Part shown: piece after piece, positions 15,366-33,003 of the stretch
How the letters are laid out: the number at the start of each line of letters is the position of its first letter
Position numbering within the stretch: position 1 is the stretch's first letter
Source: Clostridia bacterium
GTDB taxonomy: Bacteria; Bacillota; Clostridia; Oscillospirales; QAMX01
Assembly: GCA_017414715.1 (NCBI GenBank)
Contig: JAFQKV010000071.1
Coordinates: 1 to 33,003 of the forward strand
Direction of reading: 5' to 3'
Length of the DNA: 33,003 nucleotides
Program-made: the position numbers and the translations under genes
Notes under the pieces: generated by a model
Told to the model about the DNA's origin: nothing
The model's input: the letters and a program-made list of their open reading frames with translations, nothing else
Databases searched by the model: none

Positions 15366-16265
15366 ATGTTATCCGGAATCCTGCCTGTGGACAAGCCCCA
15401 GGGAATGACCTCGCACACGGTGATCTCCGTGCTGCGGCGGCTGACCGGTATCCGAAAGATCGGCCATTCCGGCACCCTTGACCCCATGGCCACCGGTGTG
15501 CTGCCCCTTTGCGTGGGGCGTGCCACCCGTGCCGCGGATTTTGTGGCGGATTCTCCGAAGCAGTATATGGCCGAGCTGACCCTTGGAATGGAGACGGATA
15601 CTGAGGATACCACGGGAAATATCCTGCGCACCTCGGAGGTTTCCGTAACCGAGGCGCAGCTGCGTGAGGTGCTCACCCGTTACGTGGGCGATATCGAGCA
15701 GATCCCGCCCATGTATTCTGCCCTGCAGAAGGACGGACGGCGGCTCTACGATTTTGCCCGGGCGGGTATTGTTGTGGAGCGAAAGCCGCGTCCCGTGAGT
15801 ATTTACGGACTGGAGCTTGTGCGTTCCACGGGTGAAAACCGATGGGAATTGAAGATCGACTGCTCCAAAGGAACCTATGTGCGTACCCTTTGTGCGGATA
15901 TCGGCCGTGAGCTTGGCTGCGGCGGCGTGATGAGCGCCCTGCGGCGTACCTATTGCGGCGGTTATTCCGCAGAGGATGCATACACATTGGATGAGCTTCG
16001 TGAGATCTGTGAGAGCGGACGCTTTGCGGAGATCCTTCGTCCCACGGAGACCGCGTTCCCCGACCTTCCGGATTTCCGGATCCGTGGCATTGCGGAGGAA
16101 CGCTTCCGTCACGGAGCACCGGTTTACCGTCGTCATCTTCCGGAAATGCCGGAGGAGGGCATACAGATGCGCATCTTTGGCGAAAACGATTTTCTCGGTC
16201 TTGGCCGGGTGAAAAACGGTGAGCTTTGGTGCGAGAAAAGTTTTTGTGAAATTGATGAGGCGTAA
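15366..16265 (+). CDS. truB: tRNA pseudouridine(55) synthase
   Basis: Makes pseudouridine 55 in the T-loop of tRNAs. Length 299. Motifs: GILPVDKPQGMTSHTVI at the N-terminus; GHSGTLDPMATGVLPLCVG containing the catalytic Asp39; YMAELTLGMETDTED; and KGTYVRTLCADIG. A C-terminal extension resembles the PUA-like region. The ribosome site is GAGG about 12 nt upstream. It sits 15 bp after nrnA and 5 bp before ribF, a standard order. Confidence 0.96.
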   Translation: MLSGILPVDKPQGMTSHTVISVLRRLTGIRKIGHSGTLDPMATGVLPLCVGRATRAADFVADSPKQYMAELTLGMETDTEDTTGNILRTSEVSVTEAQLREVLTRYVGDIEQIPPMYSALQKDGRRLYDFARAGIVVERKPRPVSIYGLELVRSTGENRWELKIDCSKGTYVRTLCADIGRELGCGGVMSALRRTYCGGYSAEDAYTLDELREICESGRFAEILRPTETAFPDLPDFRIRGIAEERFRHGAPVYRRHLPEMPEEGIQMRIFGENDFLGLGRVKNGELWCEKSFCEIDEA

Positions 16266-29227: not shown

Positions 29228-29869
29228 ATGCTCGGCGGATTGATCTGCGTGCTCGGCGCGGCGGCAATCATCGCAGCGCTGCTTTTTGAGCCGAAGGCCG
29301 CGTGGCTGAAACGCCTGCTTTTGGGCGCGTCTGTTCTGACGGTGGCGGCGGGACTGCTCCTTGGCGGGCTTTCCCTGACAAAACACGGTTCGGATACACC
29401 CGCGCCAACACCCGCGCCGTCCCCGACGCAGTTGCTTCCCTCTCCGACGCAGATAATGTCCCCGACGGCAGTGCCGACACCCACGGCAGTGCCGACACCC
29501 ACGGCAGTGCCGACACCCACGGCAGCGCCGACACCAACGGCAGCGCCGATCCCGACGGCAACGCCTATCTCTGTGGTGTCTCCTGTCCTGACGGCTACTC
29601 CCGTCCCCACGGTGACACCTGCCCTCACCGCGACACCCGTACCGACAGCAACCGTAATGCCAACGGAGACCGCTGCGCCTACAGAAGCACCTCCCGCGAA
29701 GACAGACACGGTTACGGAAACGACTGTTGTATATGTGTCCAATTCCGGCATTATGCATCTGAAGCCCAACTGTTCCGGCATGAAGAATTACCGGGAAATG
29801 ACCCTTGGCAGCGCGGCGGCGGAGGGATTGACGCGGCGGTGCAAAAATTGCTTCCGCACCGTCGAATAA
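29228..29869 (+). CDS. Membrane-anchored Thr/Pro-repeat protein with Cys-rich C-terminal motif
   Basis: Protein of 213 residues with no family I can name. Two hydrophobic segments at the N-terminus (about 2-18 and 26-46) would anchor it. Residues about 57-155 are a Pro-Thr-Ala linker built from short repeats, probably spanning the cell wall. The last 45 residues form a compact domain with one His and three Cys (HLKPNCSGM and RRCKNCF), a pattern I associate with small C-terminal domains following nuclease or surface modules in clostridia, and possibly zinc-binding. ATG 29228 has a GGCGAGG site. It has its own promoter. The function is unknown; the linker suggests a surface-displayed domain. 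Confidence 0.75.
   Translation: MLGGLICVLGAAAIIAALLFEPKAAWLKRLLLGASVLTVAAGLLLGGLSLTKHGSDTPAPTPAPSPTQLLPSPTQIMSPTAVPTPTAVPTPTAVPTPTAAPTPTAAPIPTATPISVVSPVLTATPVPTVTPALTATPVPTATVMPTETAAPTEAPPAKTDTVTETTVVYVSNSGIMHLKPNCSGMKNYREMTLGSAAAEGLTRRCKNCFRTVE
29465..29554 (+). repeat. 18-bp tandem repeats encoding a Pro-Thr linker
   Basis: Three perfect 18-bp copies (29465-29482, 29483-29500, 29501-29518) followed by two degenerate copies. Each encodes a six-residue Thr-Ala-Val-Pro-Thr-Pro unit. Copy number is likely to vary between strains. Confidence 0.92.
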
Positions 29870-29880
29870 AAAACAGAAAA

Positions 29881-29912
29881 TGTCAGGAAAAAATTTAATA
29901 TTTTTCTTGACA
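29881..29912. repeat. Inverted repeat covering the -35 box of the T-box operon promoter
   Basis: TGTCAGGAAAAA (29881-29892) and TTTTTCTTGACA (29901-29912) are complementary at 11 of 12 positions across an 8-nt AT spacer. The right arm contains the perfect TTGACA -35 box. It could be a repressor site, or serve as a weak terminator for the gene ending at 29869. Confidence 0.5.
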
Positions 29913-29935
29913 TGTGCGGAATAATTATGTATAAT
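29907..29935 (+). promoter_or_regulatory. Consensus promoter of the T-box operon
   Basis: Perfect TTGACA (29907-29912), 17-nt spacer, perfect TATAAT (29930-29935). It is the strongest promoter in the window by match to consensus. It begins the 407-bp gene-free stretch, whose remainder is the T-box leader. Confidence 0.93.
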
Positions 29936-29941
29936 AAGCAA

Positions 29942-30250
29942 CAATATTTCAAAAGCGTTGATGGAATTACGCCTTTCCCGATCTGCTTCAGAGAGTCGGC
30001 GGCCGGTGCGAGCCGATGCGAGAAGGTCATGGCGGTCTCATTCCGGAGCTGCGTTCCCTAAATGCCCCGGCGGCACGCGTAAGGAACGACGGTTTGCCCC
30101 GTTACCATGGCTATGGGCTTGCATACGAGCCCGAAGGAGCGGTCGCAGTATCCGAAAAGTTCGGTGTGCGGCAACCAGGGTGGTACCGCGAATTTGTTTT
30201 GAATTCGTCCCTGAAGCAGTCAAAATCTGCTTCAGGGATTTTTTTAGTTT
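29942..30250 (+). promoter_or_regulatory. T-box leader, probably tRNA-Leu(GAG)-responsive
   Basis: Full-length T-box. Stem I starts around CAGAGAG; the specifier loop reads GGT-CTC-ATTCCGGAGCTG, giving CTC (Leu) at 30037-30039 followed by the usual A. The T-box motif AGGGTGGTACCGCG is at 30177-30190. The antiterminator pairs AGGG (30177-30180) with CCCT (30209-30212) and GCGAATT (30188-30194) with AATTCGT (30202-30208, one wobble), leaving the 7-nt bulge TGGTACC. TGGT would pair with a tRNA 3' end ACCA, fitting the A discriminator of tRNA-Leu. The competing terminator is the stem TCCCTGAAGCAG/CTGCTTCAGGGA (30208-30219 and 30227-30238) plus seven T. Uncharged tRNA-Leu should switch on the two downstream genes. 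Confidence 0.93.
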
Positions 30251-30276
30251 ATTTTCATGACAGGAGAGATATTTGC

Positions 30277-31686
30277 ATGAAAGACATTCGTATTATTGAC
30301 ATGACGCTGAAGGAGTCTGCCTTCCGGGCAGACAGTACGCTGAGCTTCAAGGAAAAGCTGGCGGTTGCCCGTCAGCTTGACCGGCTGGGCGTTGCCTGCA
30401 TCGAGTGCCCGCAGCTTGCGGATGCAAAGACCGACGGTCTGCTCGTCCGTACCCTTGCCACCATGCTCAAGGATTGCGAGCTTTCCATTCCTGTCGGACT
30501 TTCCGCCGAGAGTGCAAAGGAGGCCTATGCCGCCGTGTCCTCTGCGAAGACGCCCCGTCTGGTGGTGAGTGTTCCCACCTCTGCGGCGCAGATGGAATAC
30601 CTGAGCCACGTCAAGCCTGCGGCGATGCTCAGGCTCATCGGTGAACTCACCGCCTTCTGCCGCACCCTTTGCCCCCGGGTCGAGTTCTCCGCCGAGGATG
30701 CCACCCGTGCCGAGCGCGCTTATCTCATTTCCGCCATCCGTGCGGCAGTCGAGGCCGGCGCAACTTCCGTAAATATCTGTGATTCCGCCGGCGTGATGCT
30801 GCCCACCGAGTTTTCGGCTCTCATTGCGGAGCTGTATGCCGAAATCCCCGCCCTGGCGGAGATCGAGGTCACCGTACAGTGCGCAAATGAGATGAACATG
30901 GCGGTTGCCAACTCCTTTGCTGCGGCTGCCTGCGGTGCCGTGGGTATCAAGACCTCCGTCAGCGGTGCCGTTTATCCCCGGCTGGATGCCGTGGCACAGG
31001 TGCTTCGCCTGCGCGGTGAGGTCATGGGCATGACCAGCCGCCTTTCCATGACGGAATTCAAGCGCGCCATGAAGCAGCTTTGGTTTGCCGATTCCCAGGC
31101 TGCCCGGGCATCCGATGTCCGCACCGCAGTACCGGGAGAGGAGAAGCCCGCGGTTTCTCTCGGTGCCATGAGCACTCCCGCCGATGTTGTTGAGGCGGTC
31201 AAGGCTCTTGGCTATGACCTTTCCGAAGAGGATGCTGCGAAGGTCCACGAAGAGGTCGTCCGTGCGGCGAAGGGAAGAGGCATCAATGAAAATGAGCTGG
31301 ATGCCATCGTTGCCACCGTGGCGCTGGCCGTTCCCCCTACCTATAAGCTGGTGGACTATGTGATCAACAGCGGCAACGTCATTACCCCGACGGCAAATAT
31401 CCGTCTGGAGCGCCGCGGAGAGATCCTGCAGGGGCTTTCCTCCGGTGACGGACCTGTGGATGCTGCTTTCCGTGCGGTGGAGCGCGTGACCGGCCATCAT
31501 TACGAGCTGGATGATTTCCAGATCCAGTCGGTGACCGAGGGGCGCGAGGCTATGGGTAACGCTCTCGTCCGCCTGCGCAGCAACGGAAAGCTCTATTCCG
31601 GCAAGGGCGTTTCCACCGATATCATCGGTGCCAGCATCCGCGCCTATGTGGCTGCCCTCAACAAGATCGTGTATGAAGAACGATAA
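30277..31686 (+). CDS. 2-isopropylmalate synthase-like protein with degenerate catalytic site
   Basis: Resembles LeuA: an HMGL-like TIM barrel (about 1-270), a helical linker, and a C-terminal LeuA regulatory (leucine-binding) domain (about 345-465) with SGDGPVDAAFRAV, VTEGREAMGNALVRL and DIIGASIRAYVAALN. Length 469, shorter than the usual 510-ish LeuA. Catalytic motifs are altered: the canonical DxTLRDG is DMTLKES (residues 8-14), and the metal-binding HxHND is QCANE (201-205), so both His ligands are gone. Condensation activity is therefore doubtful, and a regulatory or new role is possible. The start at ATG 30277 is set by AGGAGA 9 nt upstream. It is under the Leu T-box and followed after 33 bp by the TIM barrel-ligase fusion gene. 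Confidence 0.85.
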   Translation: MKDIRIIDMTLKESAFRADSTLSFKEKLAVARQLDRLGVACIECPQLADAKTDGLLVRTLATMLKDCELSIPVGLSAESAKEAYAAVSSAKTPRLVVSVPTSAAQMEYLSHVKPAAMLRLIGELTAFCRTLCPRVEFSAEDATRAERAYLISAIRAAVEAGATSVNICDSAGVMLPTEFSALIAELYAEIPALAEIEVTVQCANEMNMAVANSFAAAACGAVGIKTSVSGAVYPRLDAVAQVLRLRGEVMGMTSRLSMTEFKRAMKQLWFADSQAARASDVRTAVPGEEKPAVSLGAMSTPADVVEAVKALGYDLSEEDAAKVHEEVVRAAKGRGINENELDAIVATVALAVPPTYKLVDYVINSGNVITPTANIRLERRGEILQGLSSGDGPVDAAFRAVERVTGHHYELDDFQIQSVTEGREAMGNALVRLRSNGKLYSGKGVSTDIIGASIRAYVAALNKIVYEER

Positions 31687-31719
31687 CTCTTTCAACGCAT
31701 ATAAGGACGGTATCAGACC

Positions 31720-33003
31720 ATGAAACTTGCTTTTTCCACCAAAGGGTGGCATGATTTTACCTTTACGGATTTTCTCAATACGGCTGAGGAGCTGCGTTTC
31801 TCCGGCATTGAGATCCATAATCTTTCCGGTGCCGTGTTTGCCGAAAACGGCGGCGTTTTTGCCCCGGCTGAGATCGCAAATACCGCCCGCAGACTTGCGG
31901 ACCGCGAACTTTGCATCCCCTGCATCGACTCCCTGCAGGATATCACCTCTGCAGAGCCGGGCGAGGTAGCCGGAGAGGTGCGTGTGTGTATTGAGACGGC
32001 TGCGGCGCTGGGCGTTGAGAATGTCCGCGTGCGTGTCGGAAGCGATACGGTGGCGGAAGCGGCCGATGCGGTCATTGCCCGCGCGATGCGTTGCCTCGAT
32101 GTCATCGTTCCCATTGCCGAAAAGGCGGGGGTGACGCTGCTTCTGGAGACCATCGGTATCTTTGCGGACACCGGCCGTCTGCGTGAGGTGCTCGATCATT
32201 ATGCCTCCGATGCGCTGGCCGCCCTCTGGGACATCCATCACTCCGTGCGCACCGGCGGAGAGAAGCCTGCCACCACCATCTTTAACCTCGGCGCGTATGT
32301 GCGCCATGTGCACATCAAGGATTCCGCCCCCGTGGGCGACGGCTTTGAATACCGTCTCGTCGGCGAGGGTGATCTGCCCATCCGCGAGTTTATGATGGCG
32401 CTGCGCTCCATCAACTACGACGGATATATTTCCCTGGAGCTCGACCCCGCCTGGGTGGAGGAGCTGGGCGACGCGGACATCGTGTTCCCCCATTTTGCCG
32501 CCGCCATGAGCCGGTATGAGAATCCCTCCCGTATGCAGTCTACCCTCTTTTCCAACCGTACCGGTACCGGAAAGATGGTCTGGAAGAAGGAGACCCTCAT
32601 CGAAAAGACCTTCTCCCAGGTGCTGGATAAGATGGTGGAGGAGTTCCCCGACCAGTATTGCTTCAAATACACCACCCTGGATTATACCCGCACCTATGCG
32701 GAATTCCGCGACGATGTGGATACCTTTGCCCGGGCTCTGGTGGCTTTGGGCGTAGGCCCCGGCACCCATGTTTCCGTTTGGGCCACCAATATCCCGGAGT
32801 GGTACATCGCCTTCTGGGCAACCACCAAGATCGGCGCCGTTCTTGTGACGGTCAATACCGATTATAAGATCCACGAGGCGGAATATCTGCTGCGCCAGTC
32901 GGATACCCATACCCTCATTATGATCGACCGCTCGCTGGATTCCAACTATGCCGCCATCATGCAGGAGCTCTGCCCGGAGCTCAAGGACAATGCCCCCGGC
33001 GAG
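31720..33003 (+). CDS. TIM-barrel (AP endonuclease 2/xylose isomerase-like)-acyl-CoA synthetase fusion, 3' end outside window
   Basis: 428 residues are visible in one open frame to the window edge. Residues 1-270 form a sugar-isomerase/epimerase-like TIM barrel: KLAFSTKGWHDF, then the expected metal ligands Glu143 (LLLET), Asp171 and His173 or His174 (WDIHH), His198 (HVHIKD) and Glu240 (SLELD). From about 287 an AMP-forming ligase (ANL) domain starts: FARALVALGVGPGTHVSVWATNIPEWYIAFWATTKIGAVLVTVN is typical of acyl-CoA synthetases. The AMP-loop and catalytic Lys lie beyond the window. Start ATG 31720 follows AAGGA by 12 nt. No stop or frameshift separates the two domains. It is probably co-transcribed with the LeuA-like gene under the Leu T-box; the substrate is unknown. 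Confidence 0.88.
   Translation, partial: MKLAFSTKGWHDFTFTDFLNTAEELRFSGIEIHNLSGAVFAENGGVFAPAEIANTARRLADRELCIPCIDSLQDITSAEPGEVAGEVRVCIETAAALGVENVRVRVGSDTVAEAADAVIARAMRCLDVIVPIAEKAGVTLLLETIGIFADTGRLREVLDHYASDALAALWDIHHSVRTGGEKPATTIFNLGAYVRHVHIKDSAPVGDGFEYRLVGEGDLPIREFMMALRSINYDGYISLELDPAWVEELGDADIVFPHFAAAMSRYENPSRMQSTLFSNRTGTGKMVWKKETLIEKTFSQVLDKMVEEFPDQYCFKYTTLDYTRTYAEFRDDVDTFARALVALGVGPGTHVSVWATNIPEWYIAFWATTKIGAVLVTVNTDYKIHEAEYLLRQSDTHTLIMIDRSLDSNYAAIMQELCPELKDNAPGE

Follow-up and report, generated by a model that had tools for sequence, protein, structure and literature searches.

It has been known since about 1960 that branched-chain volatile acids act as growth factors for rumen bacteria and that leucine, isoleucine, and valine can be made from them. 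For isovalerate, Allison and colleagues described incorporation into leucine by ruminococci and in the rumen (1962 and 1966, cited in PMC7356843). Amino acid operons under T-box control (Rfam RF00230) carry leaders with Stem I, a specifier codon, a T-box sequence, and a terminator, and in Geobacter the canonical leuA is likewise controlled by a T-box (PMC2494555). We analyzed a window of 33,003 nucleotides, the whole of contig JAFQKV010000071.1 (assembly GCA_017414715.1) of a Clostridia bacterium of the order Oscillospirales. Its last 3 kb hold a Leu T-box leader, a gene for a pseudo-LeuA (pLeuA) related to 2-isopropylmalate synthase, and the 5′ part of a gene for a barrel-ligase fusion. The operon to which these genes belong very probably makes leucine from isovalerate, a conclusion well supported by genomics. 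The proposal as a whole, an isovalerate-to-leucine operon that serves an anaerobe lacking the classical leucine pathway and that has pLeuA as feedback subunit, is likely. The pathway, the T-box, and the enzyme families are individually of known kinds. The rumen pathway is known as physiology, whereas no description of the operon, of its three-way T-box code on ligases, or of pLeuA was found in open-licence full texts, although other texts may hold one.

A preliminary description made from the sequence alone had proposed a promoter, a Leu T-box, a LeuA-like protein with a broken active site and an intact regulatory domain, and a two-domain acyl-activating enzyme, in that order, and all of them are present at 29907-33003 (see the table). 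The leader exceeds the gathering score of RF00230 (93 bits) and has both the alternative terminator and antiterminator and an amino acid specifier, which we located via Stem I of the Rfam alignment. A CCCT segment is common to the 5′ arm of the terminator and the 3′ arm of the antiterminator, so that the 2 structures compete, an overlap also found in other T-boxes controlling transcription. By its sequence, the leader is of the kind permitting read-through when tRNA-Leu is uncharged. It shares its general architecture with the T-boxes of described amino acid operons but differs from them in what it controls, namely, an acyl-CoA ligase and 2-oxoacid:ferredoxin oxidoreductase (VOR) route together with a dead LeuA.

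Table. Features of the pLeuA operon within the window (all on the + strand).
Feature	Position	Details	Basis
Sigma-70 type promoter	29907-29935	TTGACA 29907-29912, TATAAT 29930-29935, spacer 17 nt	sequence
T-box leader, RF00230	29949-30215	Leu-specific; 97.1 bits, E = 2.1e-20	cmscan
Specifier codon	30037-30039	CUC (Leu), followed by A 30040 and the lower Stem I helix UUCC	Rfam alignment
Antiterminator, conserved T-box sequence	30177-30190	AGGGTGGTACCGCG; whole antiterminator 30177-30216	
Intrinsic terminator	30209-30245	CCCTGAAGCAG..CTGCTTCAGGG-A-T7; hairpin 30209-30237, -17.4 kcal/mol	folding (energy)
Ribosome-binding site of pLeuA	30262-30267	AGGAGA	sequence
Pseudo-LeuA (pLeuA)	30277-31686	ATG 30277 to stop 31686, 469 aa	
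Ribosome-binding site of fusion	31703-31707	AAGGA	sequence
Barrel-ligase fusion, 5′ part	31720-33003	ATG 31720, 428 codons, open to contig end	

pLeuA combines a dead HMGL-like barrel (approximately residues 4-270) with an intact LeuA_dimer leucine-binding domain (residues 336-464), an arrangement shared with LeuA proper (TIGR00973; M. tuberculosis LeuA 3FIG). Compared with solved LeuA structures, RDGEQ is replaced by KESAF and HCHND by QCANE, whereas the allosteric domain scores 111.8 bits against PF08502 (gathering score 24.9) and contains the leucine loop GDGPVDA, bearing out the earlier view of the protein. The score of canonical LeuA is not reached (258 bits for the whole protein and 146 for the best stretch, versus a TIGR00973 cut-off of 598.7). 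The window protein and nearly all of 79 relatives lack the metal site and the catalytic Arg of LeuA (RD, HxH, N); the 2 metal-ligand His are retained in 1 and 2 sequences, respectively, and the Asn in none. The GIGER and HQHG loops are missing from every one of the 79 sequences, and this deletion, together with the replaced metal and catalytic positions, points to one ancestral loss. In the reading favored here, pLeuA probably no longer acts as a catalyst. By contrast, the leucine loop GxGPxDA is retained in 76 to 79 of the 79 sequences, and identity among them is higher in the regulatory part (71%) than in the catalytic part (48%), the reverse of the constraint in canonical LeuA (58% and 62%, respectively). 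The AlphaFold model (predicted local distance difference test, pLDDT, 90) keeps the LeuA fold, and its Foldseek matches are LeuA and MAM synthase, including the leucine-bound M. tuberculosis LeuA.

The fusion consists of a xylose-isomerase-like barrel (approximately 31720-32560) and an AMP-forming acyl-CoA ligase (from approximately 32584). The window spans all of contig C42, part of a draft genome of 1.8 Mb with 92% completeness, and stops inside this gene, so the downstream genes had to be sought on another contig of the same genome, C38, and in relatives. The remainder of the fusion lies on C38 (positions 3-1223, locus L107), with approximately 8 codons missing between the contigs; in the sister genome G010 the full protein has 843 aa. 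The adenylation motifs and the C-terminal catalytic lysine motif are invariant over 74 to 80 fusions, the C-terminal part of the window protein being that on C38. The ligase is PRK12583-like (682 bits versus a cut-off of 832) and forms a branch distinct from the methylbutyryl-CoA synthetase MbcS; isovalerate is its predicted substrate, judging from the T-box and the pathway. The metal quartet E/D/H/E of the barrel (PF01261) is present in the window and in 43 of 81 fusions and lost in 38, and a family-wide role as an active sugar isomerase was therefore rejected: a function common to all barrels can hardly be isomerization. Our guess is a docking or scaffold part; the structure model (pLDDT 77) is too weak to place the barrel relative to the ligase. 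In those barrels of L023-L102 that have lost the quartet, D and E are mostly replaced together (N..V and H..I patterns) and the remaining barrel is conserved.

Scanning 84,980 species genomes with the barrel revealed 275 relatives, of which the best 80 were fetched as a first set of loci; a second set of 40 loci was drawn from 245 genomes in the bacterium's own order, with pLeuA as the sole criterion. pLeuA lies directly 5′ of the fusion in 80/80 loci of the first set, and in the independent test the fusion lies 3′ of pLeuA in 40/40. The co-occurrence of the 2 genes, on which the preliminary description had staked its proposal, thus held in both sets. Gene order and specifier of the window recur in approximately 100 loci and are therefore not a chance arrangement. 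The carriers span more than 10 families of gut Clostridia; most are uncultured gut Clostridia, Oscillospiraceae, or Ruminococcus, and ruminants are the source of many.

The further genes suspected beyond the window were found on C38 and, whole, in G010, where the operon comprises pLeuA, the fusion, IlvE, a P-loop ATPase, VorB, VorA, VorC, an XRE-cupin protein, and a second ligase of the XRE-cupin type, closest to MbcS. C38 begins with the remainder of the fusion and carries the genes of the G010 operon at 89% DNA identity. The sister VorB scores 533.7 bits against the 3-methyl-2-oxobutanoate:ferredoxin oxidoreductase model (cut-off 399), its counterpart on C38 scores 533 bits, and the operon IlvE is above its curated cut-off. 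On the fetched stretches, vor genes are present in 42 of the 80 barrel-selected loci; contig ends truncate many of these loci.

The specifiers of the relatives, read by a strict rule that left a few leaders unread and misread one Ile leader (L099, ATC by a looser rule), reveal a consistent code. A T-box motif is found near the pLeuA start in 67 of the 80 loci, and all readable specifiers of pLeuA leaders, the window included, are Leu codons (59 CTC and 2 CTG); in 4 further operons, one CTC T-box heads ATPase-VorBAC-IlvE-pLeuA-fusion. Over both sets of loci, nearly all relatives whose leader could be read have CTC or CTG at this position. The T-boxes of XRE-cupin ligases read GTA (Val) in 17 cases and ATC (Ile) in 3, and further ATC specifiers were read in the second set. 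In L127, L130, L132, and L136, arms for Leu, Ile, and Val follow one another in tandem; there and in other loci, the T-boxes were confirmed with Rfam. In the tree of XRE-cupin ligases, 17/17 Val-T-box ligases fall into one clade (Shimodaira-Hasegawa-like approximate likelihood ratio test, SH-aLRT, 99) without Ile-T-box ligases, and the 2 states are separated by one change. The specifier codon thus tracks the ligase branch and can serve as a fair guide to the substrate. Wels et al. reported that T-box specificity agreed with gene function wherever the function had been verified (PMC2494555). The XRE-cupin ligases match best MbcS of Staphylococcus aureus (NF047394, acting on branched short-chain acids) at 428 bits, but fall below its equivalog cut-off of 850; they also differ in their XRE-cupin domains and in being preceded by a Val or Ile T-box. 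The S. aureus enzyme accepts 2-methylbutyrate and isobutyrate as substrates but hardly acts on isovalerate (PMC10026030). Such a division would be expected if the supply for Ile and Val came from MbcS-like ligases and that for Leu from the fusion.

Canonical LeuA, IlvC, and LeuC scoring over the cut-offs were looked for in the genome of the window, and none was found. Among 52 pLeuA genomes, LeuA exceeds its cut-off in 1, IlvC in 6, and LeuC in 3. A manual count over the listed scores of the 245 genomes in the order gave approximately 52 with pLeuA and 77 with LeuA, with an overlap of 1 where 16 are expected (1/52 pLeuA genomes versus 76/193 others, p = 6.7e-9). VorB is present in 20/21 pLeuA genomes versus 4/16 LeuA-only genomes (p = 1e-5). 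IlvC is absent in 18 of the 21 pLeuA genomes, 19 of which are at least 94% complete, so genome incompleteness does not explain the missing pathway. LeuC-like matches under the cut-off were rejected as LeuC, most being aconitase-sized (580-800 aa) and often lying beside a gene for a second HMGL-like protein. The latter, 460-500 aa long and scoring approximately 100 bits to LeuA, is found at G000:C85:1977-2996, with equivalents in, for example, G022:C19, G031:C44, and G041:C53; together with the adjoining aconitase-sized gene, it possibly represents Re-citrate synthase and aconitase.

The preliminary description had envisaged a route for a branched-chain or hydroxy acid, induced at low levels of charged tRNA-Leu and with pseudo-LeuA as leucine sensor. 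The genomic context supports this reading for a branched-chain acid and makes it specific, with isovalerate as the most likely substrate and leucine as the product via VorBAC and IlvE. When leucine is short, uncharged tRNA-Leu would stabilize the antiterminator and the operon would be transcribed. The fusion would activate isovalerate, presumably supplied by the amino acid fermentation of neighbors, to isovaleryl-CoA, VorBAC would carboxylate it reductively to 2-oxoisocaproate using reduced ferredoxin and CO2, and IlvE would transaminate the latter to leucine; the sister ligases with Ile and Val T-boxes would handle 2-methylbutyrate and isobutyrate, correspondingly. When leucine is plentiful, the terminator would form and leucine-bound pLeuA, perhaps docked on the fusion barrel, would inhibit the ligase, adding protein-level feedback to the RNA-level control by the T-box. 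The predicted chemistry, from acid to acyl-CoA, reductive carboxylation, and transamination, is the same as that of the rumen carboxylation of isovalerate (Allison 1962, 1966, cited in PMC7356843), a habitat shared by the carriers, several of which are named Ruminococcus.

The role of pLeuA is less certain than that of the operon. Given that it stands beside one ligase in 120/120 loci and that its sensor half is the most conserved, pLeuA is best read as the regulatory subunit of this ligase, and the loss of metal ligands in nearly all 79 sequences with retention of the leucine loop makes a leucine-feedback subunit most likely; from these sequence patterns, we consider a function as leucine sensor of the isovalerate ligase reasonably probable. 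A little more doubtful, yet still favored, is the evolutionary extension, in which the carriers, across the families of gut Clostridia, changed leucine pathways and took the old sensor along, so that the dead first enzyme of one pathway, kept for its sensor domain, would now be an obligate feedback subunit of another, docking on the fusion. A dead enzyme retained as a regulatory subunit is known from HisZ, a dead histidyl-tRNA synthetase acting with HisG; the idea is similar, but those proteins are unrelated to pLeuA and the fusion, whose complex is a proposal only. Alternatively, within the same isovalerate-to-leucine operon, pLeuA might mainly fill a new catalytic role, such as binding or handing over the acyl-CoA or the 2-oxoacid. 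Its barrel keeps the LeuA fold, and K113, D141, R144, and D169 are invariant in 62 diverse sequences, more than a scaffold seems to need, but the near-universal loss of metal ligands and catalytic loops and the far greater variability of the catalytic half make such a role unlikely.

Several observations weigh against leucine synthesis under feedback by pLeuA. No T-box motif was detected near pLeuA in 13 of the 80 first-set loci; several of these are cut by contig ends, and in 4 the T-box heads a longer operon. Both routes coexist in a few genomes (G036 and G274), the pLeuA genomes G056 and G061 hold LeuC and IlvC, and a plain leucine auxotroph would equally show the missing pathway. In the genome of the window, VorB has an in-frame TAG (L107, 3331-4377) and the second ligase is split into 2 reading frames (L107, 6293-7986), either through assembly error or through decay; both are whole in G010. 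The substrates of the fusion ligase and of this VOR are predicted, and so is contact between pLeuA and the fusion; that pLeuA binds leucine is suggested by kept residues. Finally, VOR enzymes also run oxidatively, which is compatible with an operon that mainly oxidizes 2-oxoacids. Similarly, it might mainly supply branched-chain acyl-CoA to membrane lipids, given that S. aureus MbcS provides branched-chain lipid primers (PMC10026030). Both variants appear quite improbable, as the cognate Leu, Val, and Ile T-boxes would induce the genes under shortage of the amino acid, and starvation for its substrate would be an unexpected inducer of a breakdown route; moreover, IlvE is part of the operon, and the carriers, with few exceptions, lack IlvC, LeuC, and LeuA. 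Production of an acyl-linked secondary metabolite, the other possibility raised at the outset, gained no support and is very improbable: the ligase domain resembles adenylating enzymes in fold, as does its whole superfamily, but its conserved neighbors are VorBAC, IlvE, and MbcS-like ligases, and no carrier protein, condensation, tailoring, or export gene is conserved in the operon across the loci.

The isovalerate-to-leucine operon provides testable genes, with predicted substrates for 3 ligase types from their own T-boxes, and a genomic marker for gut bacteria depending on branched-chain acids of others, of relevance for cross-feeding and isoacid feed additives. If the sensor role is true, pLeuA would clearly exemplify a biosynthetic enzyme that lost its activity but was retained for its sensor domain.

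Other genes and elements accompany the operon or its relatives. The P-loop ATPase (approximately 221 aa; L018, 9550-10215), without an NCBIfam match, usually lies directly 5′ of VorB, also in relatives. An amidohydrolase-like gene (approximately 270 aa; L019, 3390-4205) is present in 48 of the 80 loci, 3′ of the pLeuA-fusion pair and in few loci 5′ of it; an NCBIfam search at 1e-20 returned no match. A second sequence resembling part of the MbcS-like ligase (69% DNA identity) is located in the genome of the window near a contig start (G000:C69:328-1270). T-boxes with a TTC (Phe) specifier lie approximately 4.5 kb 5′ of pLeuA in L035 (3941) and L043 (3938), and L066 contains a tandem pair of thiamine pyrophosphate riboswitches (15432-15693, - strand). 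Within the window, directly 5′ of the promoter, 29228-29869 (+) encodes a putative membrane-anchored protein, in which a long Thr/Pro/Ala repeat is combined with a Cys motif at the C-terminus (NCSGMKNY..CKNC).

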